A stretch of DNA of 34,847 nucleotides from an uncultured Mycoplasma sp. (GTDB taxonomy: Bacteria > Bacillota_I > Bacilli_A > RF39 > UBA660): contig CAMEXD010000012.1 of NCBI GenBank assembly GCA_945947035.1, forward strand, positions 1 through 34,847, written 5' to 3'. A program made the translations under genes and the position numbers. The stretch's first letter is position 1; every line of letters begins with the position of its first letter. Below the pieces are notes generated by a model. That model was not told the DNA's origin. It saw only the letters and a list, made by a program, of their open reading frames with translations, and did not search any database. Positions 1,103 to 34,325 of the stretch are shown piece after piece.

Positions 1103-1612
1103 CTAAGGAGTACAAGATGTTAAAGCTTGAACTGAACTATCAGAAATTGCATCCTCATCAGCATCAATTCCTTGAGTACCATCAGTTAAACAAATATGAT
1201 ATTTGTATGAGCCATCTGTTTGAGCAATAACTTGAATATAAGAATTTGAGTCATATTCATTTCCGTATGGACTTTTCTTTAATTTTTTCTCTAATAAATC
1301 GTTAATTCCCTCTTGCCAAGTTCCACCTGCAGTATCACATGCAGACTTTGTTGTATCACTTGTTTTAACGCTATCTTTAATACAAGCACCATTTAAGTAA
1401 TAAGTTCTATTGCCAGCAGCCCCAAATTGAGAAATAACATCATTTCTAACTGCACTAATTGCTGATTGTGCATTATCGGCATAAGTTCCCTTTCTTGCAG
1501 TAGTTAAATATCTTGTAACTGCAGGAACTGCTACTGCAACAAGTATAGCTAATATAACGATAACTGCTAAAAGTTCAATTAAAGTAAATCCTTTCTTATT
1601 TAATTTTTTCAT
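1103..1612 (-). CDS. Type IV prepilin-like protein (ComGC/pseudopilin type)
   Basis: Secreted pilin-like subunit, 169 residues. The N terminus is a classic class III signal: KKLNKKG then FTLIELLAVIVILAILVAV, with cleavage expected between Gly and Phe and the conserved Glu at mature position +5; the hydrophobic helix would hold the protein in the membrane before assembly. The rest is a small globular domain with four Cys (two may form a disulfide) and many Ser/Thr/Asp. I start at the ATG at 1612 because GAAAGGAG lies 8 nt upstream and it puts the leader peptide at normal length. It has its own promoter and terminator, although a second prepilin gene lies 88 bp upstream on the same strand. No prepilin peptidase, ATPase or platform gene is in this window, so whether it serves in competence, a pilus or secretion cannot be told. 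Confidence 0.88.
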   Translation of the reverse strand: MKKLNKKGFTLIELLAVIVILAILVAVAVPAVTRYLTTARKGTYADNAQSAISAVRNDVISQFGAAGNRTYYLNGACIKDSVKTSDTTKSACDTAGGTWQEGINDLLEKKLKKSPYGNEYDSNSYIQVIAQTDGSYKYHICLTDGTQGIDADEDAISDSSVQALTSCTP

Positions 1613-1644
1613 ATATAAATCTCCTTTCACTACCTTATAAATAA

Positions 1645-1673
1645 ATAATATCATTAAACTATATAACTTTCAA
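1645..1673 (-). promoter_or_regulatory. Sigma-A-type promoter of the 1103-1612 pilin gene
   Basis: Reading the minus strand: TTGAAA (1673-1668), a 17-base spacer, then TATTAT (1650-1645) preceded by TG one base before, an extended -10. The predicted start lies about 25 bases before the ATG's Shine-Dalgarno region. This implies the second pilin gene is not solely dependent on the first. Confidence 0.6.
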
Positions 1674-1700
1674 GATAATTTAACATAAATTGACAAAAAA

Positions 1701-2171
1701 TTAATCAATATTAAATCTTACAACTGAATCTTTATTTAAATTAGCCTCAGAAACATAACTAACTTCTGTAGTACTTGATGAAATTCCCCAAATTTTTTTA
1801 TTTTCTGCGTTTGTTGAAACTAATTTTATTGAATAATTATAAACACCTGCATTTATACACACTTTAACGCAACATTCATCAGGAGAATATAAATTACCAT
1901 CAGGATCTTTATCTAAATCTTGACCAAATAAAGAATTACTAGCACATATTTCTTTACATCTTCCTTCAGTTGGATAATATTCTTCATATTTTATTAATTT
2001 AGATTTATATTTTACATCACTTAAAAAGTTTTCTGCATCTGTTAATATTTGTTCTTTCCTTCCATTATCTACCATTTTTATTACGTTAGGAGTTGCAATA
2101 ACTGCTACAATTGCAATTAAAGTAATTACAACAATTAGTTCAACTAAAGTAAAACCTTTTTTATTTTTCAT
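1701..2171 (-). CDS. Type IV prepilin-like protein, Cys-rich
   Basis: Second prepilin-like protein, 156 residues, transcribed just before the 1103-1612 pilin. It begins MKNKKG/FTLVELIVVITLIAIVAVIA, the prepilin cleavage and helix motif with Glu at +5. The globular part differs from its neighbour: it carries a CKEIC and a CCVKVC cluster, suggesting disulfides in an exported domain. The ATG at 2171 gives the expected 6-residue leader; AAAGG is about 12 nt upstream, a little far. A TATAAT at 2201-2196 on the minus strand, 17 bp from a weak TTGTTT, may be its promoter, with the -35 falling in the T-tract side of the SASP terminator. Function beyond a pilus or pseudopilus subunit is not evident. 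Confidence 0.85.
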   Translation of the reverse strand: MKNKKGFTLVELIVVITLIAIVAVIATPNVIKMVDNGRKEQILTDAENFLSDVKYKSKLIKYEEYYPTEGRCKEICASNSLFGQDLDKDPDGNLYSPDECCVKVCINAGVYNYSIKLVSTNAENKKIWGISSSTTEVSYVSEANLNKDSVVRFNID

Positions 2172-2230
2172 AATATCACTTAGCCTTTCACTAAAATTAT
2201 ATAACATTTAAAAAATAAAAACAATATAAA

Positions 2231-2534: not shown

Positions 2535-2963
2535 TTAAAACTGGTAATTTCTACCTCTTTTAAATTTTGATTTAAAATTATCTTTTTTGTTAAAAATTAT
2601 ATTTAAATTTTTTTCATAAGTATAACTATCAACATAGCCAAATCTTATTATATCCTTTTCTTTATCACAATAAATAATATCCTTTATTTTTTCAATAATA
2701 TCATCATTTTTATTTAAAATTAAAATTTTTGTATAATTGCATCCTTTTTCTTCTTCAAGCACTACTATTATTTTGCCATCTTGATAAAAAAGATATGCAA
2801 ATGTTTTTGATAAATCATATTTATCTTCAAATAATATTATTTTAAATGGATCATATCGTAACAATATATCTTTTCTTATTACGTAATCTATAACTGGTTT
2901 TTCCTTTTTATTTAAATAAATATAACTTTTTCTTGTATGTTGTACATAATGTTTTTCTTTCAT
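2535..2963 (-). CDS. Uncharacterised 142-residue protein coupled to a transglutaminase-like gene
   Basis: I do not recognise this protein. It has no signal peptide or membrane segment, is rich in Lys, Asp and Ile, and ends in a basic tail (KSKFKRGRN). Alternating strands such as YLFYQDGKIIVVLEEE and TKILILNK suggest a small alpha/beta or beta-rich fold. Its ATG lies only 3 nt after the stop codon of the transglutaminase-like gene, and its AAGGA Shine-Dalgarno is inside that gene's last codons, so translation is probably coupled and the two proteins are likely to work together. Confidence 0.7.
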   Translation of the reverse strand: MKEKHYVQHTRKSYIYLNKKEKPVIDYVIRKDILLRYDPFKIILFEDKYDLSKTFAYLFYQDGKIIVVLEEEKGCNYTKILILNKNDDIIEKIKDIIYCDKEKDIIRFGYVDSYTYEKNLNIIFNKKDNFKSKFKRGRNYQF

Positions 2964-2966
2964 TTT

Positions 2967-4436
2967 TTATCTTCCTTTTTTATCTATTTTTGTTATTACA
3001 TTTAAAAGTTCCATTCTTTCTTTATCAAGTGCTATTTTTTCACTTTGTTTTAAATCACTCATTTTTTCAAAATAAGAATCTGTTAAAGCATCTTTTAAAA
3101 TCATATCATTACATTCATCATTGCCAAAGATTAATCTAAAAAATCTTGTTGCTTCGCTTTCACTATATCTACTACTTAAAACGTTAAAAATTGTATCTTT
3201 ATCATAACTATATTTTTTAGGATTTAAGTAGTGTTCAATTCTTCTCGTTTTAATAAATACTTTTAAAAATATATTACTTGATAAATTTTTACTTTCAAAA
3301 TCTTTTATCTCTTTCATTAAATCTTCTATATCTTGTTCTTTTATAGAGATACCATCTTCAAGATTATTAATTAAATCATCTATTTCTTTAACTTTTTTTT
3401 CATCATTTAAGTTAGTAAAAACTTGTTTTATTTTTTCTAATAAGCTTTTAGTAATAAAACTTAAATTAAATAATTGATAACTTTTATATTGTTTTTTTAC
3501 TCTTGATACTGAATTTAAGTAAAAATCTTCGTCTTCTTTTTGATTATAAACTTCTTCTTTTATTTTTTTAGCTTTTTCTAAGCTTAAACCAAAAAAATTA
3601 TAGCTATCTTCATTATCTTTTCTTTTGCTACTTTTACTATCCCAAGTTGCATCAAATTCTAGTATTCCTTTATAATTATAGGTTGTATCATTTATATAAC
3701 AAATATTAGTAACATGACCAACATTTTCTTCTTCATTAAAATAAAATCTTTTTTCAGTTTTTATTCCTAATAAATTAGCAACTGATGAAAAAATATTGGC
3801 AAATCCACTACAGACAATAGCATCTCCTTTTATAACTTTATCTAAATCTCTAGATTCATTATAATCGCCTTTTTTATTATATGCTCTATCCTTTATAATA
3901 TCATAGATAAACATCAACTTTTCTAATTCACTTAATTTAAACTTTTCTGTTAATTGTTTAATTTCTTCTACATAAGTTAAAGTATCTAAAAATTCTTTTA
4001 ATTTATAGTAATTATTGTTATTATACTCATGTCTTAAATAAACATTACCTTTAAATTTCATATTGCTAAGTTCTTTTATTTTATCATAAGAAAAATTATT
4101 TGTATTTAAATTTATAAATATATCATTTTCATAATTTTCTAAAAAAGATTTATTTTTCAAAAGATCATCTATACTATTTGTCTCTATCGTTATTTTTTTA
4201 AAATTATCTAAAGCTAAAGGATTATCAAGATATTTATGTAAACTTTCTATTAATTTTTTGGTATCAAAAAAATCATCCTCATCAATTTGACGTTCTTCAA
4301 AATTAATTTGATTTTTTATATATTTTTTCATACTCAATAATTCATTTATTTTGTCTAATTCTTTAGTATTTATATACACTGTTTCATTATTATAAGTAAC
4401 ATCATCTTCATTTTTTAATTCTACAATAAGTTCCAT
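2967..4436 (-). CDS. Transglutaminase-like (papain-fold) protein, 489 residues
   Basis: Probable cytoplasmic protein with a transglutaminase-like core in its middle: Cys209 in IVCSGFANIF, His241 in NVGHVTN and Asp262 in LEFDATWD give the Cys-His-Asp triad in the usual order and spacing. Such domains act as cysteine peptidases, amidases or cross-linking enzymes. About 200 residues before the core contain strand-rich segments without recognisable motifs, and the last 200 residues are charged and helical, possibly coiled coil. No signal peptide is seen, which is unusual for bacterial transglutaminase-like proteins that act on the wall. It lies 20 bp after thiI and is coupled to the downstream 142-residue gene. 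An extended -10 (TGTTATAAT, minus strand 4464-4456) inside the thiI tail may give extra transcription. Substrate unknown. Confidence 0.75.
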   Translation of the reverse strand: MELIVELKNEDDVTYNNETVYINTKELDKINELLSMKKYIKNQINFEERQIDEDDFFDTKKLIESLHKYLDNPLALDNFKKITIETNSIDDLLKNKSFLENYENDIFINLNTNNFSYDKIKELSNMKFKGNVYLRHEYNNNNYYKLKEFLDTLTYVEEIKQLTEKFKLSELEKLMFIYDIIKDRAYNKKGDYNESRDLDKVIKGDAIVCSGFANIFSSVANLLGIKTEKRFYFNEEENVGHVTNICYINDTTYNYKGILEFDATWDSKSSKRKDNEDSYNFFGLSLEKAKKIKEEVYNQKEDEDFYLNSVSRVKKQYKSYQLFNLSFITKSLLEKIKQVFTNLNDEKKVKEIDDLINNLEDGISIKEQDIEDLMKEIKDFESKNLSSNIFLKVFIKTRRIEHYLNPKKYSYDKDTIFNVLSSRYSESEATRFFRLIFGNDECNDMILKDALTDSYFEKMSDLKQSEKIALDKERMELLNVITKIDKKGR

Positions 4437-4456
4437 AAAACACCTCTATAATAGTA

Positions 4457-5638
4457 TTATAACATATCATTAAATTCTTTTTCATCTGTTATTTTTATAA
4501 TTTTTATATTATCAACTACTTCGTCGATTAAAGTTTCATAGTCAAACTTTTTTTCCATTTCAAGACATTTTTCAAGTTTTGGATTTATAACAGGATGTTT
4601 AGGTACAAAAATAGTACAACAATCTTCATATGGTAAAATACTAATATCATAAGTATCTATTTTTTTTGCTATATCTATTATTTCTAATTTATCAAAACAT
4701 GCAACTGGTCTTATAACAGGTGTTTTAACAACCTCATTTATTACAACCATACTATCAAGAGTTTGACTTGCAACTTGTCCAATTGATTCTCCATTAACTA
4801 TTACTTTGCAATTATATTTTTTACATGTTTTTTCTGCTACTCTATACATCATACGTCTTAATATTGTTATAACATATTCTTTATCGCAAGTTTTATAAAT
4901 TGTTTCCTGAAGTTTAGTAATAGATGCAACATAAAGATTAAAACTACTACAATAATTATGTAATTTTTTACTTAAATTTATCACTTTTTCTCTAGCATTT
5001 AAACTAGTATGAGGAATAGCTTCAAAATAAATTGCATCAAGTTTTACTCCTCTTTTTAAAGTTAGATAAAAAGCAACTGGTGAATCAATTCCTCCGGATA
5101 ACATTACAAGTCCTTTACCACCAACAGAAACAGGATATCCACCTAAACCTTTAATAGTATCTAAGTAAATATAAGTATCTTCTTTATTAATTTCAATATT
5201 TACATAAACAAAAGGATTATGAACATCAACTTTAATACCATCTATATTTTTTAAAATATATCCACCAATTATGTTGTTAAAATCCATGCTTCTAATAGGA
5301 AAAGTTTTATCACATCTTTTTGTTTCTACTTTAAATGTTTTATAATCTTTGTCTTGTAGTAAAGATAATACCTTTTCTTTTATTTCTAAAACATCAGTTT
5401 TAACTTTATAACAAAAACAATAAGAATGAATACCAAAAGTATGATTTAAAACATCTACTACTTTATCTTTTACCTTACTATCAAATTCAACAAACATTTT
5501 TGAATGTTCTTTAGTTATTTTAACGTCACTATTTTTAAGTTTTTCATATATATTATTATAGAGAGTATTAATAAAAAGATTTCTATTATCTTTTTTTGTT
5601 GTCAATTCAGCATATTTAATTAGAACAAGTTCTTTCAT
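4457..5638 (-). CDS. thiI: tRNA 4-thiouridine synthase ThiI (no rhodanese domain)
   Basis: Adenylates U8 of tRNA and transfers sulfur to give 4-thiouridine, a near-UV sensor; in some bacteria it also feeds thiamine thiazole synthesis. The 393-residue protein has the N-terminal ferredoxin-like plus THUMP region (about 1-165), then the PP-loop ATP pyrophosphatase domain with SGGIDS at 181-186, FEAIPHTS, and VNGESIGQVASQT. The segment LPYEDCCTIF carries the conserved Cys pair of the PP-loop domain. It stops there: there is no C-terminal rhodanese domain as in E. coli, which is normal for Bacilli, where a cysteine desulfurase supplies sulfur. No nifZ-type desulfurase gene is adjacent here. The start has AGGTGA 8 nt upstream and a good promoter at 5662-5690. 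Confidence 0.96.
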   Translation of the reverse strand: MKELVLIKYAELTTKKDNRNLFINTLYNNIYEKLKNSDVKITKEHSKMFVEFDSKVKDKVVDVLNHTFGIHSYCFCYKVKTDVLEIKEKVLSLLQDKDYKTFKVETKRCDKTFPIRSMDFNNIIGGYILKNIDGIKVDVHNPFVYVNIEINKEDTYIYLDTIKGLGGYPVSVGGKGLVMLSGGIDSPVAFYLTLKRGVKLDAIYFEAIPHTSLNAREKVINLSKKLHNYCSSFNLYVASITKLQETIYKTCDKEYVITILRRMMYRVAEKTCKKYNCKVIVNGESIGQVASQTLDSMVVINEVVKTPVIRPVACFDKLEIIDIAKKIDTYDISILPYEDCCTIFVPKHPVINPKLEKCLEMEKKFDYETLIDEVVDNIKIIKITDEKEFNDML

Positions 5639-5661
5639 AAAACTTTCACCTACCGCGCTTT

Positions 5662-5690
5662 ATTATACCTTATTAAATCCGATTTGACAA
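5662..5690 (-). promoter_or_regulatory. Promoter of thiI (shares its -35 with the divergent promoter)
   Basis: Minus strand: TTGTCA (5690-5685), 17-base spacer, perfect TATAAT (5667-5662), about 24 bp before the thiI ATG. The -35 is the opposite strand of the TTGACA used by the plus-strand HD gene. Confidence 0.65.
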
Positions 5691-5711
5691 TAATTTTATT
5701 TGTAGTATAAT
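5684..5711 (+). promoter_or_regulatory. Promoter of the HD-domain gene
   Basis: Perfect TTGACA (5684-5689), 16-base spacer, perfect TATAAT (5706-5711), 38 bp before the ATG. Overlaps the -35 of the divergent thiI promoter. Confidence 0.75.
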
Positions 5712-5749
5712 AATAACGTTTATATATTTTTAATTAAGAAGGGATTTTT

Positions 5750-6238
5750 ATGGATCAAGAATATTTAAAAATTATAAAAGATTTAGTTAATAATAGAAAA
5801 TTCAAAAAATTAATTAATGAAAAACATCACAACTCCAATAATAGATATAACCATTCACTTGATGTTTCTTATTATACATATAAAATTTGTAAAAAATTAA
5901 ATTTGGATTATGAAAGCGCAACAAGAGCAGCTCTTTTACATGACTTTTTCTTTAAAAGTGAGATAAGAGGACCAAAAGAGATTATTTTTCACCCTAAACA
6001 TGCTATTATTAATGCTTCAAAAATAACAAAACTTAATGATAAAGAAAAAAATATAATTTTATCTCATATGTTTCCAATTGGATATGTACTTCCTAAATAT
6101 AAAGAAAGTATTATCGTTGATATTGTAGATGATGTTGTTTCATTTAAAGATATTAAAAATATTTGCCAAAAAAATATAAGGAAGTTAGAAAATGCTCTTA
6201 GTTTTATTGCTTTTGTTTTAATTAATTTTATAAGATAA
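5750..6238 (+). CDS. HD-domain phosphohydrolase-like protein
   Basis: 162-residue protein of the HD superfamily of metal-dependent phosphohydrolases. The metal ligands are visible: His in YNHSLDVS, the HD doublet in AALLHDFFF, a further His in HPKHAI and in LSHMFPIG, and Asp in DIVDDVV. This layout is like stand-alone HD proteins found beside other housekeeping genes; substrate (nucleotide, second messenger or other phosphate ester) cannot be read from sequence. It is a single gene with its own consensus promoter, AAGAAGGG ribosome binding site 6 nt before ATG, and a strong bidirectional terminator after it. It ends at Ile-Arg with a short hydrophobic tail (SFIAFVLINFI) that could touch the membrane. 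Confidence 0.82.
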   Translation: MDQEYLKIIKDLVNNRKFKKLINEKHHNSNNRYNHSLDVSYYTYKICKKLNLDYESATRAALLHDFFFKSEIRGPKEIIFHPKHAIINASKITKLNDKEKNIILSHMFPIGYVLPKYKESIIVDIVDDVVSFKDIKNICQKNIRKLENALSFIAFVLINFIR

Positions 6239-6274
6239 AAATACCATTTTTTAATATTTTTAATTAAATATAAA

Positions 6275-6313
6275 AAGGACTATAATGAAATTATTTTATT
6301 CATTATAGTCCTT
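6275..6313. terminator. Bidirectional terminator between convergent genes
   Basis: Perfect 15-bp stem (6275-6289 with 6299-6313) and 9-base loop. T-rich sequence follows on the plus strand and the A-run before it gives T residues on the minus strand, so it can end both the HD gene and the gene stopping at 6333. Confidence 0.92.
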
Positions 6314-6332
6314 ATCTTTTTTTCTTATATAA

Positions 6333-6923
6333 TTATTTTTTTAATGTCTTGACAAATTTTTTTAATACTGGTTTTGCAAATTGTTCTTCCAGTGTTAAAA
6401 TACTACTTTTATATCTACTATATGCATCCTCATAATTTCCTTGTTCAATTTGTTCAATACAATAATCTACAACGTTATCATAAATATAATCATAAATAAT
6501 ATCTGACTTTTCTTCTTCGTTAATAGCTTCAACAATAATTGGTGCTACTTTATAATAATGCTCGATATCTTCTTTTGAAACAAAATTATCTCTAAACCAT
6601 CTTAATACTGTTAGTTCATAACAATTATCATCAAAATCTTCTTGAAAATGTTTCATACAAGCAGATGTTAAATAACAACCACCATTACTTTGTACTTCAC
6701 CGGTTGAAGGATTTTTAGAATTATTACTTTCTGAACGACTCCAGTCAGAATTTTTGCCAGAGTCATAATCATTTTTATTATTCCAATGTTCATGACTATG
6801 TCCACCATCACCATTATCAGAATAACGATTTACACTTCCGTTTTTTTCATAGCTAGTATATGTTAAATTTCCTTTGTCATCACTACTTGCATATCCCCAA
6901 TCTCTATTATTACCTTTACTCAT
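6333..6923 (-). CDS. CFI-box-like protein with low-complexity N terminus
   Basis: 196-residue protein of unknown function. Residues 1-80 are low complexity (Asn, Ser, Asp, Gly, His, Lys), with GGHSHEHW, and look disordered. From residue 81 comes a compact motif: GGCYLTSAC (Cys83, Cys89), then a DDNCYELTVLRWFRDNFV block (Cys101), which resembles the Cys/Phe/Ile CFI-box domain seen at the end of many uncharacterised Gram-positive proteins. The remaining 80 residues are helical and acidic (EQIEQGNYEDAYSRY looks TPR-like) and end in a basic KKFVKTLKK. The three Cys could bind metal or react covalently. Its ATG overlaps the end of the upstream gene by 8 bp; GGAAAGGTG lies 9 nt before it. Domain name is from memory; role unknown. 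Confidence 0.72.
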   Translation of the reverse strand: MSKGNNRDWGYASSDDKGNLTYTSYEKNGSVNRYSDNGDGGHSHEHWNNKNDYDSGKNSDWSRSESNNSKNPSTGEVQSNGGCYLTSACMKHFQEDFDDNCYELTVLRWFRDNFVSKEDIEHYYKVAPIIVEAINEEEKSDIIYDYIYDNVVDYCIEQIEQGNYEDAYSRYKSSILTLEEQFAKPVLKKFVKTLKK

Positions 6924-7215
6924 TATTTTTTACACCTTTCCAAATATAATTAATATCTCCATCATCATAAAAAATAAAATTTTTACGACCAATAAAATCA
7001 AATGCTTCATTATATTTTTTTATAATCATTTCAGTAAGTTTTAATTGTTGTTCATGATTTAATACTGAACGACTATCTCTAAATTTTTGATGTACATTAT
7101 AAGCTTCTTGAATTAGAGGAATTTGTACTCTATTATCATCTTCATAGCATTCCAACGCAAGTTGTGCTTTTAAAAGAAAATAGATATTTTTTTCTAATTT
7201 TTCTTTAATATTCAT
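6916..7215 (-). CDS. Small helical protein, partner of the CFI-box-like gene
   Basis: About 99 residues, mostly helical, no signal peptide or membrane segment; I do not recognise the family. The C-terminal part carries aromatic and acidic residues (NFIFYDDGDINYIWKG). The second ATG (7215) is preferred: GGAG ends 11 nt upstream, whereas the first in-frame ATG (7224) is only 2 nt from it. The stop overlaps the start of the CFI-box-like gene, so the pair is translationally coupled and probably functions as a unit. Similar pairing of a small helical protein with a low-complexity partner occurs in chaperone-substrate or toxin-like systems, but nothing here proves that. Confidence 0.68.
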   Translation of the reverse strand: MNIKEKLEKNIYFLLKAQLALECYEDDNRVQIPLIQEAYNVHQKFRDSRSVLNHEQQLKLTEMIIKKYNEAFDFIGRKNFIFYDDGDINYIWKGVKNNE

Positions 7216-7242
7216 ATAATGCATATCTCCTTTCTTGAACGT

Positions 7243-7271
7243 ATTGTATATTAAAAAGAACAAAAAATCAA
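7243..7271 (-). promoter_or_regulatory. Candidate promoter of the 7215-6333 pair
   Basis: Minus strand: TTGATT (7271-7266), 17-base spacer, TACAAT (7248-7243), 28 bp before the preferred ATG. Further upstream, 7369-7384 is an AAAAAGT/ACTTTTT dyad with a 2-bp centre; I see no gene between 7272 and 7444. Confidence 0.5.
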
Positions 7272-7444
7272 GTAATTAAAATAAAAGTTAAACATATCTT
7301 TAATTTTTAAAATAACGTGCTTTTAGGTTAAGAATAAAACTTACTCATTACATTTATTTTAAAGTACTAAAAAGTAAACTTTTTGTTCTAAAATATCCGT
7401 GTGATACATCATCTTTACATCAATTAGATTTTATCACAAAAAAA

Positions 7445-7472
7445 AGCATTAGAAGTTAATTCTTCTGACGCT
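7445..7472 (-). terminator. Terminator after the first DHHW gene
   Basis: Minus strand AGCGTCAGAAG and CTTCTAATGCT form an 11-position stem (one wobble, one mismatch) around 6 bases, followed by a run of eight T. It begins 38 bp after the DHHW stop codon. Confidence 0.82.
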
Positions 7473-7509
7473 ATTATTATAGAAATTATTTTATTCATTA
7501 ATATATTTT

Positions 7510-8574
7510 TTATCCTTTTAAAGTTCCACTATTATTTATTACTAAAGTACTATACATGAATAATATATCTTGATTATTAAATTCAATATAATTTAGAAAG
7601 TTTTCACTGCTTATATATCTGTTATCAATTAAAGTTATCTTACTATAATAATTAATTAAAAGTGGTGTTAAACTACTTGCAAATGAATCTCTAAAAATAA
7701 CAAGTTCTTTATTAGAATTATTATTATAATTATATATTTCGATAAAGGATGATGCTCCGTCTAAATAAACTTCATAGGAATCTAAACTATTTAATTTATT
7801 TTTATTATATACTTCATGAAAATTAGTGTTTTCCAAATAATTTACATAACATGAATTAATTATATTATTTTCTAAATATATAAGTTTTTCAGGTTTTCTT
7901 TTTATAGCAGATCGACCATAATAAACACCATAGAAATTATCATAAATATTTTCTTTATAATCTATTTTTTGATAAGAAAAATCCATTACTTTTGACATTT
8001 CAAAAACAACCTTATCTAAATTTTGTTGTTTAAAATGAGTATCAGTCTCATAATAATCATATAAATTTAAAGTATTTCTTAAATCAATTTTTGTCATATC
8101 TAATTTGTTTAATGAATTATATAAATAGTTATAATCTATTTGTAAAAAGTTTTTATCTTCTAAGTAATAATTTTTATCTGGTACAATCATAAGATATGTT
8201 TTATTATCTTCTGTTAATAATGATTTAATTTTATTTGTTTTTTCTATAAAATTATTAATAGATTTTTCATCTGTTGGATATTCACTTTTAAAAATATAAT
8301 TATCTTTAATATAGATACCATTATTATCATACATATTTAAAATATTATAATTAAAACTTGCTTTAATACTTCTAAAGTTTTCTCTAAAAGGAAAATGATC
8401 TAAAAAATATTTATCTACATTTTTTATATAATCACTATCTATTTTATATTCTGGAAAGGTTGTTAATTTTCTTCTTTCAGAAAAACTTATTTTTTCATCT
8501 TTAATAACAATTCCAAGAATTCCAAATAGAAAAATATATATAACAAATGAAATTGTAATTATTTTATCTTTCAT
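7510..8574 (-). CDS. DHHW-family (AlgX/AlgJ-like SGNH) membrane protein, copy 1
   Basis: 354-residue protein anchored by one N-terminal membrane segment (about 5-25), with the rest outside the cell. DHHW proteins resemble the SGNH-hydrolase acetyltransferases AlgJ/AlgX and work with MBOAT proteins to O-acylate exported polymers. Seen here: FSERRKLTTFP after the anchor, the region YYETDTHFKQQN where the family has DHHW/DHH, and a C-terminal FRDSFASSLTPLL block holding the probable nucleophile Ser. The Asp-Thr-His-Phe variant is a departure from the copy at 24979, which keeps Asp-His-His. The ATG at 8574 is preferred over GTG 8580 because AAGGAG lies 5 nt upstream, overlapping the stop of the MBOAT gene; the two are clearly one transcription unit. 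Confidence 0.8.
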   Translation of the reverse strand: MKDKIITISFVIYIFLFGILGIVIKDEKISFSERRKLTTFPEYKIDSDYIKNVDKYFLDHFPFRENFRSIKASFNYNILNMYDNNGIYIKDNYIFKSEYPTDEKSINNFIEKTNKIKSLLTEDNKTYLMIVPDKNYYLEDKNFLQIDYNYLYNSLNKLDMTKIDLRNTLNLYDYYETDTHFKQQNLDKVVFEMSKVMDFSYQKIDYKENIYDNFYGVYYGRSAIKRKPEKLIYLENNIINSCYVNYLENTNFHEVYNKNKLNSLDSYEVYLDGASSFIEIYNYNNNSNKELVIFRDSFASSLTPLLINYYSKITLIDNRYISSENFLNYIEFNNQDILFMYSTLVINNSGTLKG

Positions 8575-8583
8575 ACGCACTCC

Positions 8584-9960
8584 TTAAAATCTAAAATATA
8601 AAAATGGATTAAATGATGAATCTATTAAATAAGCAGTTACTAAAGTAAGTAAAGCAAGATAATAAATAGGTTCAATAAAATCTATTACAATTTTAAATTT
8701 AGTTTGTTCTAATTTTTTTATTATATTACTAAATAATGGTGTTGAAAAAATACAAGCAAGAATTATAACAATAAAATAGCTTTTAAAATAGTAAATTGCT
8801 TCACTTCCACTAAAAGAAACATCACTTATCATAAATATATTTTTTAATTCTGGTAATAGTTCTTTCATTGGCAAACTAAAGATTAAAAAGCTTATTATTA
8901 CAATAAACATTGTATAAATGTGTTTAAATACTTTTGTTTTATCAAGATATTTTTTTAAGAAAAGTTTTTCTATTATTAAAATAACTCCAAAATATAAACC
9001 CCAGATTATAAAATTAAAGCTTGCGCCATGCCAAAACCCTGTTAAAAACCATACAACAAGGATATTTCTAATCCATTTTAAAGTGCTACACCTATTTCCT
9101 CCCAAAGGAATATAGACATAATCTCTAAAAAAAGATGATAAAGATATATGCCATCTTCTCCAAAAGTCTGTAATTGATGATGCGATAAATGGATAGTTAA
9201 AGTTTTCTAAGAAATGGAAACCTAATATAAGTCCAAGTCCTATAGCCATATCAGAATATCCAGAAAAATCAAAATAAATTTGTAAAGTATAAGAAATTGC
9301 TTTTAAAATTGATGATAACGTTGTTTCTTCAATTAAAAGTCCTGGAAGCTCACCTATTACATTAGCTATTAAAACTTTTTTAGCAAGTCCTGTAATAAAT
9401 CTTTTTACACCAGAACTAAAATTAGAATAATTAGTTGTCCTATTTTTAATTTCTTTTTCTATATCACTATATCTTACAATTGGTCCTGCAACAAGTTGAG
9501 GAAAAAGTGATATATACATCATAAATGATAGTAAATTATCTGATGCTTTTACTTTATTATTATATACATCTATTATATAACTTAAAGCTTGAAAGGTAAA
9601 AAAGCTTATTCCAATTGGCAGAACAATATACAGATATGATATATTTGTTTTAAAAATAGCATTTATGTTTTCTATAAAAAAATCTGTATATTTAAATATT
9701 AAAAGTTGTCCAATATTATAAATAAGAGCAATTATTAGAAATAATTTTTTATGGTTTGTTTTTTCTATTAATTTACCAAGATAATAATTAATAAAACATG
9801 ATAATAGTAATAAAATTATATATCTTGGTTCTCCTAAAAAATAGAATAATAAACTAAATACGAGTATTATAAAATTACGATATTTTTTTGGAACTAAAAA
9901 ATAAAAAAGTAGAAATATTGGTAAAAAGTAATAAATAAAAGTTATACTAGAAAATAACAT
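8584..9960 (-). CDS. MBOAT O-acyltransferase (AlgI/PatA/DltB-like), copy 1
   Basis: 458-residue multi-pass membrane protein of the MBOAT family, moving acyl groups from inside to an extracytoplasmic polymer. Typical blocks are VAGPIVRYSDIE, QIYFDFSGYSDMAIGLG, the signature TDFWRRWHISLSSFFRDYVYIPLGGNR region, and the catalytic His in FLTGFWHGASFNFIIWG. It ends YLIDSSFNPFLYFRF, as does the paralogue at 26138. Partner: DHHW protein immediately downstream. Oddity: no Shine-Dalgarno precedes the ATG; instead a good promoter places the RNA start at or one base before the ATG, so the mRNA may be leaderless (see promoter entry). The start itself is supported by the paralogue, which begins MVFSSAIF versus MLFSSITF here. 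Acyl group and polymer are unknown. Confidence 0.9.
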   Translation of the reverse strand: MLFSSITFIYYFLPIFLLFYFLVPKKYRNFIILVFSLLFYFLGEPRYIILLLLSCFINYYLGKLIEKTNHKKLFLIIALIYNIGQLLIFKYTDFFIENINAIFKTNISYLYIVLPIGISFFTFQALSYIIDVYNNKVKASDNLLSFMMYISLFPQLVAGPIVRYSDIEKEIKNRTTNYSNFSSGVKRFITGLAKKVLIANVIGELPGLLIEETTLSSILKAISYTLQIYFDFSGYSDMAIGLGLILGFHFLENFNYPFIASSITDFWRRWHISLSSFFRDYVYIPLGGNRCSTLKWIRNILVVWFLTGFWHGASFNFIIWGLYFGVILIIEKLFLKKYLDKTKVFKHIYTMFIVIISFLIFSLPMKELLPELKNIFMISDVSFSGSEAIYYFKSYFIVIILACIFSTPLFSNIIKKLEQTKFKIVIDFIEPIYYLALLTLVTAYLIDSSFNPFLYFRF

Positions 9961-24978: not shown

Positions 24979-26124
24979 CTAAAGTCCTAAATGAGTTTTA
25001 ATCATACTACTTGAAAAAGCATCATTTGATTGAGATGGAACAAAAACAACATAATCAATATCGTATTTTTCAACATAATAATTTATACCATTACCGCTTT
25101 TATTATGTCTGTAATCAATAGATACCATTTTGTTAAAACTAGGGACACTTAAAGCTTCTAATATATTGGTAAATGATGATCCAACATATAAGATATTTGG
25201 TAAATTACTTCTATTAGTATCTATAACTGTATAGCCATGATCACCTTTCATATAAGCATTTTCATAAGTATTTGCTTCAGCATAGACTTTTAAATTACTT
25301 TTCTTTTCATCTTCATATCTAATATAATCAATATCAAATTTAGGAATAATATAAAGATCTTCTGGAACTGATTTAACACTTTGTCCAATCTGATTATTAA
25401 ATGATCCATTAATAATAGTTTTACCAATATCGTAATTAGATAAATCATAAAATTTTACTCTATTATCATCTATAGTATTAATAATTTCTTTATATAAAAC
25501 TTCTGCACCTTTTGGTGTTATATGATGATCTTGTAAATAATAATACCTATTTTCGTTATTTGTATTTCTGTCGTTATTAAATATTTCATAAGCATCAATT
25601 AAAGTTATATTACTATTTAAATTTTCTTTAATAACGTTAATACTTTCTTCATAAATATAAGAACTACTTATATAACTTTTTGGCAAATTATCCTTTTCTA
25701 CTGCATCTTTTCTTGGAATTGATAAAAATATAAATTTAGCATCTATTCCATTTGCAACTTCATTTATTAATTCAACTGATTCTTTTGTTTGTTCTTTTTT
25801 CTTATTAATATCTCCTACTCTTTGGTAAGAAGCATATAATTCATTATTATGTCCAATAACAACATCACCACTATATCTTTGAAATTGAAACAAATAATAA
25901 CCCTTTACTAAATAATTTCTAAACTCTAATTGATCAGAGAATGCTGTTGTTAAATCTTCCATATATTTTCCATTTAACACACTACTAAAACTAAATTTTG
26001 GAAACGTCTGTAATTTTCTTTTTTCTAAAGTACTTACGCTTTCATTATTATTAATTGTTGTAAAAAAGAAGAAAAATATAATAAATATAAACAAACTACA
26101 AAAACAATATTTTACATATTTCAT
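24979..26124 (-). CDS. DHHW-family (AlgX/AlgJ-like SGNH) membrane protein, copy 2
   Basis: 381 residues, one N-terminal membrane anchor (about 8-24) and a large outside domain. Shared family features with the copy at 7510: TLEKRKLQTFPKF after the anchor and a C-terminal LYVGSSFTNILEAL block with the likely nucleophile Ser. Here the catalytic block is intact as YYLQDHHITPKGAEVLY. The last third carries NLKVYAEANTYEN and a final DYVVFVPSQSNDAFSS. Start: GGGTGGTG is 7 nt upstream of ATG, 13 bp after the MBOAT stop, so it is co-transcribed with MBOAT copy 2. It probably acts with that protein in O-acylation of an envelope polymer. Confidence 0.8.
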   Translation of the reverse strand: MKYVKYCFCSLFIFIIFFFFFTTINNNESVSTLEKRKLQTFPKFSFSSVLNGKYMEDLTTAFSDQLEFRNYLVKGYYLFQFQRYSGDVVIGHNNELYASYQRVGDINKKKEQTKESVELINEVANGIDAKFIFLSIPRKDAVEKDNLPKSYISSSYIYEESINVIKENLNSNITLIDAYEIFNNDRNTNNENRYYYLQDHHITPKGAEVLYKEIINTIDDNRVKFYDLSNYDIGKTIINGSFNNQIGQSVKSVPEDLYIIPKFDIDYIRYEDEKKSNLKVYAEANTYENAYMKGDHGYTVIDTNRSNLPNILYVGSSFTNILEALSVPSFNKMVSIDYRHNKSGNGINYYVEKYDIDYVVFVPSQSNDAFSSSMIKTHLGL

Positions 26125-26137
26125 AACAACACCACCC

Positions 26138-27520
26138 TTAAAACCTAAAATATATAAATGGATTATAGCTTGATTGGGCTAAAAACATAATTGTTATTAT
26201 AAATAATACTATAAGTCCAATATATTTTAATATTTCAAATAATTTATACTTTTTAAACTTTTCACAGATAACATAATAAATTGGAGTTGAAAATATAACT
26301 GCTAATATAAAGTATAAATAATAAGTTTCAAGATAAATTCTTGCTTCACTTAATGCCAAAGTCGTAAAATTAAAATTAAACATAGCAATTATTACTTCTT
26401 TGAAAATAGATAAATCTTCTAATCTAAATAACATCCAACCAATAAGTATTATTAAAAGTGTTAAAATGTGTCTTAAAACATTAGGAATCTTTTCTAAAAT
26501 ATTTTTAAATACATACTTTTCTAAAATTAAAAAAATTAAATAATATAAACCCCATAAAACAAAATTCCAACTTGCACCATGCCAAAGCCCTGTTAAAAGC
26601 CAAACTACACTCATATTAAAGATTTGTCTTTTTTTACTACATCTATTACCACCAAGTGGAATATAAATATAATCTCTAAAGAATGTTGATAGAGAAATAT
26701 GCCATCTTCTCCAAAAATCAGTAATTGATTTTGCTATATATGGAAAATTAAAGTTCTCTAAGAATTTAAATCCTAAGATTCTTCCTAAACCTATTGCCAT
26801 ATCAGAATAAGCACTAAAATCAAAATAAATCTGAATCATATAAGCAATTGCTCCAAGCCATACAACTGGAGTTGTAAACGAATCAGCATTAAAAACAATA
26901 TCATCAAGTTTACCCATTTGATTAGCAATAATAACCTTTTTAGCAAGGCCTAAGATAAATCTTTCAATACCATAGCAAAAGTCATCTAAAGTAGTTGTTC
27001 TTGTTTTTATTTCACCTTCAATAGTTTTATATCTAACAATTGGTCCTGCAACAAGTTGAGGAAATAATGATACATAAAGTAAAAGAAGAAAATAATTTTT
27101 TTGAACTTCTACTTCATTTTTATAAACATCAATTACATAACTAATTGATTGAAATGTATAAAAACTAATACCAATAGGCATTATTATAGATGGTATTGAA
27201 ATATCTAAATTAAATAAATTATTAATATTTGATAAAATAAAACCAGTGTATTTAAAATAAATAAGAAACGATAAATTAAGGGCAATTGTTAAAAAAAGAA
27301 TAAGTTTTTTCTTATTACATTTTTTAATTAAAATTCCACCTAAATAAGATATAAATACAGTTAAAAGTAAAGTAAATAAATAATTTACTCCACCAAAAGC
27401 ATAAAAAATTAAACTAAAAATAAGTAAAACTATATTTTTACATTTTTTTGGTAAACAAAAATAACATAAAAACAAAAGAGGTAAAAAACAAAATACAAAA
27501 ATTGCACTGCTAAAAACCAT
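26138..27520 (-). CDS. MBOAT O-acyltransferase (AlgI/PatA/DltB-like), copy 2
   Basis: 460 residues, multi-pass. Contains VAGPIVRYKTIE, QIYFDFSAYSDMAIGLG, the TDFWRRWHISLSTFFRDYIYIP block and catalytic His in LLTGLWHGASWNFVLWG; ends AQSSYNPFIYFRF. It is a clear paralogue of the 8584 gene with the same length and same downstream partner type. Unlike copy 1 it has a strong GGAGG 8 nt before the ATG and its own promoter, and no DUF4358 lipoprotein gene precedes it. Two such pairs in one window suggest two substrates or two conditions. Confidence 0.93.
   Translation of the reverse strand: MVFSSAIFVFCFLPLLFLCYFCLPKKCKNIVLLIFSLIFYAFGGVNYLFTLLLTVFISYLGGILIKKCNKKKLILFLTIALNLSFLIYFKYTGFILSNINNLFNLDISIPSIIMPIGISFYTFQSISYVIDVYKNEVEVQKNYFLLLLYVSLFPQLVAGPIVRYKTIEGEIKTRTTTLDDFCYGIERFILGLAKKVIIANQMGKLDDIVFNADSFTTPVVWLGAIAYMIQIYFDFSAYSDMAIGLGRILGFKFLENFNFPYIAKSITDFWRRWHISLSTFFRDYIYIPLGGNRCSKKRQIFNMSVVWLLTGLWHGASWNFVLWGLYYLIFLILEKYVFKNILEKIPNVLRHILTLLIILIGWMLFRLEDLSIFKEVIIAMFNFNFTTLALSEARIYLETYYLYFILAVIFSTPIYYVICEKFKKYKLFEILKYIGLIVLFIITIMFLAQSSYNPFIYFRF

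Positions 27521-33319: not shown

Positions 33320-34325
<1,006 letters not shown>

Follow-up and report, generated by a model that had tools for sequence, protein, structure and literature searches.

Two near-consensus divergent promoters on one -35 heptamer between thiI and an HD-domain gene: a real but probably incidental overlap

What does it mean when two divergent genes appear to draw on a single -35 sequence? The question is raised by the gap between thiI and a gene encoding an HD-domain protein in the window (the whole stretch of 34,847 nucleotides that was analysed). The first-pass annotation described back-to-back promoters here that share one -35 sequence, and proposed that RNA polymerase could serve only one gene at a time, which would place a tRNA-sulfur gene and an HD phosphohydrolase in built-in antagonism. 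The feature is real and its sequence is unusually clean. However, it is of an ordinary kind and has been over-interpreted. The explanation that we favour, with a probability of about 0.78, is that these are two ordinary near-consensus sigma-A promoters that share a -35 because the gap is short and the -35 is nearly palindromic, and not because antagonism has evolved.

The promoter pair and its flanking genes

On direct reading the region runs ATTATA (5662-5667), CCTTATTAAATCCGAT, TTGACAA (5684-5690), TAATTTTATTTGTAG, TATAAT (5706-5711), and the boxes, spacers and coordinates first given for it are all correct. The HD-gene promoter, on the plus strand, consists of TTGACA (5684-5689; a 6/6 consensus match, in the sequence and in the scan) and TATAAT (5706-5711; 6/6) with a 16-bp spacer, for a total of 12/12. 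The thiI promoter, on the minus strand, consists of TTGTCA (5685-5690, read from 5690 to 5685; 5/6) and TATAAT (5662-5667, read from 5667 to 5662; 6/6) with a 17-bp spacer, for a total of 11/12. As had been claimed, the heptamer TTGACAA does contain the two -35 hexamers, which are shifted by 1 bp from one another. The heptamer lies at the midpoint of the 111-bp gap between the thiI start (5638, minus strand) and the HD start (5750, plus strand). The two -10 boxes are 38 bp apart and are embedded in a 9-bp perfect inverted repeat (TTATTATAC at 5660-5668 and GTATAATAA at 5705-5713), so that both -10 regions are identical across 9 bp. Transcription of the HD gene is predicted to start at about 5718 (plus strand), 7 nt past the -10, and that of thiI at about 5656-5655 (minus strand), which would separate the two starts by approximately 62 bp.

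The thiI gene (4457-5638, minus strand) encodes a tRNA uracil 4-sulfurtransferase of 393 aa (TIGR00342, above cut-off), and the family search identifies its product as ThiI with THUMP and ferredoxin-like domains. A gene for a transglutaminase-like protein (2967-4436, minus strand; a weak match, below cut-off) begins 20 bp downstream, and a gene for a 142-aa protein of no assigned family (2535-2963, minus strand) lies 3 bp beyond that. Both are probably carried on the thiI transcript. On the other side, the HD/HDIG-domain protein (5750-6238, plus strand; 162 aa; PF01966, TIGR00277) is probably a metal-dependent phosphohydrolase; its only match among solved structures is a weak one to 2ogi, a structure of unknown function. 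Sequences resembling ribosome-binding sites precede both start codons, AGGTGA (5646-5651, minus strand) in front of the thiI ATG (5638) and AAGAAGGGA (5736-5744, plus strand) in front of the HD ATG (5750). No RNA element was found in either leader.

Downstream of the HD gene lies a probable terminator of its transcript (6275-6313), a 15-bp hairpin and then a U run (-18.5 kcal/mol, z -6.0), which the scan missed because of its 9-nt loop. This strong hairpin and U tract make the HD gene probably monocistronic. The terminator is convergent with a gene at 6333-6923 (minus strand), the product of which matches a CFI-box C-terminal domain below the curated cut-off. A DNA copy of part of that gene, 73% identical, is present elsewhere in the own genome (G000:C10:4332-4634), and the gene may be a member of a small paralogous family.

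Rarity of the pair and sharing by chance

Are both promoters real? At a threshold of at least 9/12 the scan found 154 sites in the DNA and 148 +/- 10 in shuffles, which is no excess, so only near-consensus quality and position are convincing for this pair. Those are distinctive. Over the first 18 kb the plus site is the sole 12/12 promoter, with the minus site among five 11/12 matches in the scan, and the entire window holds one 12/12 site. Dinucleotide shuffles of the 111-bp gap gave any 12/12 site in 3 of 20,000 cases and matches of at least 11/12 on both strands in none of 20,000. On average a shuffled whole window held 0.11 sites of 12/12 and 0 shared pairs, and the exact shared pattern had no match in an independent set of 100 window shuffles. 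It is found once in the genome to which the window belongs (1.17 Mb). Since dinucleotide shuffles never yielded such a pair, the thiI and HD promoters are both very probably real sigma-A promoters, as judged from sequence. A near-perfect version of the shared pattern occurs at 17 places in 147 genomes compared with about 5 for a reversed control, in a count that let the upstream gap exceed its intended length by one base. Of these 17 places, ten are in divergent gaps, which make up 16-23% of divergent-plus-tandem gaps, and this enrichment suggests that such sites behave like real promoters.

A rare sequence is one matter and the sharing of a -35 is another. TTGACA is nearly palindromic, in that the opposite strand, one base along, reads like TTG(A/T)CA. 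Therefore, any TTGACAA gives a good -35 to both strands. How often would a -35 be shared by chance? The sample comprised 774 kb of the window's own genome and 1.6 Mb of relatives, with the best promoter per strand taken from each divergent gap, and for the null, unrelated tandem promoters of these genomes were joined back to back as artificial gaps. Genes were called by a simple ORF script and not a trained gene finder, which makes the gap counts approximate. In this synthetic null the -35 is common to 9-11% of best pairs. In the real gaps the -35 boxes coincide (+1 register) in 4 of 19 pairs from the own genome and 2 of 34 from relatives, and the pooled 6/53 is no different from the null (P = 0.54). 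The null of roughly one in ten random back-to-back pairs with a common -35 is a warning against inferring regulation from sequence alone.

The own genome taken by itself is less clear-cut. At a threshold of at least 9/12 its 4/19 is above the null with P of about 0.08-0.09, and at one of at least 10/12 sharing reaches 4/7 (P = 0.0017, in one out of twelve combinations of threshold and set). A reverse -10 at the sharing distance turns up in 10 of 39 cases there, against 11% (P = 0.009). When the exact pattern is counted across the family, the sharing register of 17 bp is somewhat favoured, with 10 cases where the mean is 4.0 (P = 0.009), but no preference is seen for the entire 15-17 bin (P = 0.44); rows of this gap histogram from outside the family are those among the matches listed. 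The own-genome excess is a weak and unproven hint, a lead and not a result, and these figures leave room for some selection or mutational tendency toward sharing in the lineage. Two other comparisons were set aside. A contrast of divergent with tandem promoters (9/58 vs 1/88) is uninformative because divergent gaps must contain a reverse promoter anyway, and the synthetic null replaced it. Perfect non-overlapping back-to-back pairs, present at one locus only, are an unfair control, as that pattern is far more demanding.

Perhaps this lineage builds divergent pairs on one near-palindromic -35 (TTGWCAA), where a single docking site for sigma region 4 decides by a coin toss between two near-consensus promoters and so limits or anticorrelates the expression of the two genes. 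Such pairs would be the -35 counterpart of bidirectional promoters with a shared -10. We consider this improbable. Candidate shared -35 boxes are also present in five other divergent gaps of the own genome (L100, L107, L109, L135 and L148). Their neighbours include a thioredoxin-like gene (L100), an ABC transporter/deaminase pair (L109), a RuvA gene (L135) and a NifU-like/S1 pair (L148, which qualifies through a looser reverse -10 criterion), and there is no common theme. For four candidate regions a counterpart could be located in the same-genus genome and aligned. Three of them (L100, L107 and L135) retain the shared box and the reverse -10, with one spacer at L135 changed by one base. However, sequence identity as a whole is so high that this retention does not prove constraint.

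The thiI neighbourhood in relatives

A conserved device that sets thiI against the HD gene should appear in relatives as the gene pair kept together with its shared -35, and this was not found. thiI is present in 139 of 147 genomes and HD relatives in 78 of 147. Among the matches listed, no genome other than the own one places thiI within 10 kb of an HD gene, and the nearest cases on one contig are 14-16 kb apart. Conservation of the pair in relatives, a requirement of the antagonism idea, fails. In 27 of the 29 relatives whose neighbourhood was read, thiI has a same-strand gene upstream, often close by. These upstream genes encode, for example, trigger factor or a cysteine-desulfurase-like aminotransferase class V. 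The other two relatives have an unrelated divergent gene upstream of thiI. The ORF script caught the HD gene in part of the HD loci, and HD neighbours in relatives were accordingly read in part.

The own genome is a fragmented assembly, 71% complete. The sole same-genus genome (G001, 97% identical in a nearby protein) is without window positions 2535-7480 and has a contig break there. As a separate observation, thiI of two relatives (L049 and L054) lies directly downstream of, or overlaps, a gene for a cysteine-desulfurase-type aminotransferase class V, an arrangement that is absent at thiI of the own genome.

Exclusion, coordination and known overlapping promoters

In the favoured explanation both promoters would be active. 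From the 111-bp gap one would drive thiI and probably the genes downstream of it, the other would drive the monocistronic HD gene, and constitutive transcription of each strand from these housekeeping (sigma-A) promoters would be expected. The footprint of the holoenzyme extends from roughly -55 to +20. Since the predicted starts are separated by about 62 bp, one bound polymerase should keep a second from binding, and holoenzyme is very unlikely to sit on both promoters simultaneously. Nor should one -35 heptamer be jointly occupied by sigma region 4 of two holoenzymes. Polymerase would thus load in one orientation at a time. This part of the original proposal stands to the extent that the overlap on one heptamer is seen and exclusion is inferred from known footprints, but exclusion is not regulation. 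If both promoters are active, the site is a clean natural test object in which two near-consensus promoters compete for one -35.

The site fits an arrangement already described, the overlapping divergent (back-to-back) sigma-A promoter pair. Sigma-A promoter sequences lie on opposite strands and face divergent genes, and their core elements overlap, directly at the -35 and presumably also in their footprints. The Pc and Pr promoters of the Bacillus subtilis plasmid pLS20 are alike in that opposite-strand sigma-A promoters occupy the same DNA, so that polymerase should be able to bind just one of them at any moment (PMC4207663); that paper treats exclusion at overlapping promoters as demonstrated. 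However, the favoured assignment for pLS20 places the -10 of one promoter on the -35 of the other, whereas here only the -35 is common. The pLS20 promoters differ several hundred-fold in strength and a dedicated regulator drives the switch. Here the boxes match at 12/12 and 11/12, strength being judged by sequence, and no regulator is seen, so neither the unequal strengths nor the differential regulator of a pLS20-like polymerase switch is apparent at this site.

Bidirectional promoters are another comparison. They share a -10 and have starts 7-25 bp apart (Warman et al., 2021, cited in PMC10268837; PMC12825309). As here, a near-symmetric core element can serve both strands and steric exclusion is expected. 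However, it is the -35 that is common at this site, with the -10 boxes and predicted starts much further apart (38 and about 62 bp), so the defining feature of the shared -10 type (Warman/Grainger) is absent. A literature phrase search of incomplete coverage returned no description of two promoters on one shared -35 heptamer, which is not evidence of novelty.

Could the shared centre coordinate the genes instead, with a repressor, or supercoiling from one transcript, moving both together? There are precedents. In Acinetobacter ddrR/umuDAb the -35 boxes of the two divergent promoters overlap a single inverted repeat that acts as an operator, which makes coordinated control possible (PMC7273328), and divergent promoters can aid each other through supercoiling, as with ilvY/ilvC (discussed in PMC4469952). 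However, ddrR/umuDAb has a known repressor that binds there and related genes under coordinated control. At the present site no regulator gene is adjacent, and near the box there is only an imperfect dyad, TTAAATCCGATTTGA (5673-5687). In 774 kb of the own genome the core of this dyad, AAATCnGATTT, is found at one intergenic and two coding positions, with no sign of a regulon. An operator at the shared box was also considered and rejected, as no repeated dyad was found in the sampled own genome. Coordination is therefore unlikely.

The antagonism originally proposed is that polymerase on one promoter represses the other, so that expression of thiI and of the HD gene would be reciprocal. Both promoters are close to consensus, which makes competition more plausible than at the weak bidirectional promoters of E. 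coli and alone keeps the idea worth considering, and the predicted footprints would have to overlap. Five tested E. coli promoters of the shared -10 class have basal activity too low for competition, and as wild types they showed little of it; the partner was repressed only upon strong activation or when the -35 was improved (PMC12825309). The improved -35 speaks for antagonism here and the wild-type behaviour against it. Also against it is a divergent pair in the E. coli appY promoter island, which is transcribed at high levels both ways and whose promoters partly overlap and start 64 bp apart (PMC4469952). That island differs from this site in being a region of many promoter-like signals, silenced by H-NS, and not a single shared near-consensus -35. 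We know of no functional connection between thiI and the HD gene, neither is a DNA-binding regulator in family searches, and a regulator site was not found. With the pair unconserved, thiI usually codirectional with its upstream gene and sharing at the pooled null rate, the proposed antagonism of tRNA-sulfur gene and HD hydrolase is supported by nothing except physical overlap and is quite improbable. It is also quite unlikely that only one promoter is real and the other's hexamers are a by-product of AT-rich DNA and a near-palindromic -35, as the presence of ATTATA at every distance upstream of strong TTGWCAA promoters in relatives might suggest, because, besides the shuffle result, both sides combine a 6/6 -10 and a 16-17 bp spacer with a ribosome-binding site downstream and a gene for which a promoter is required.

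A few observations concern other DNA. The window holds two separate gene pairs that, judged from their translations, appear to encode a membrane-bound O-acyltransferase and an AlgJ/AlgX-like partner (7510-9960 and 24979-27520, minus strand). A protein encoded at 33320-34294 (minus strand) has a long GPTGPT collagen-like repeat and resembles surface collagen-like proteins, and two proteins encoded at 1103-2207 (minus strand) have type IV pilin-like N-terminal motifs (KKGFTLIELLAV and KKGFTLVELIVV). In relatives, CIRCE-like repeats (of the TTAGCACTC and GAGTGCTAA types) surround strong TTGACAA promoters (G045:C11:34008-34062, G011:C53:2317-2372 and G018:C31:2350-2403), and the genes at these sites are possibly HrcA-controlled heat-shock genes.
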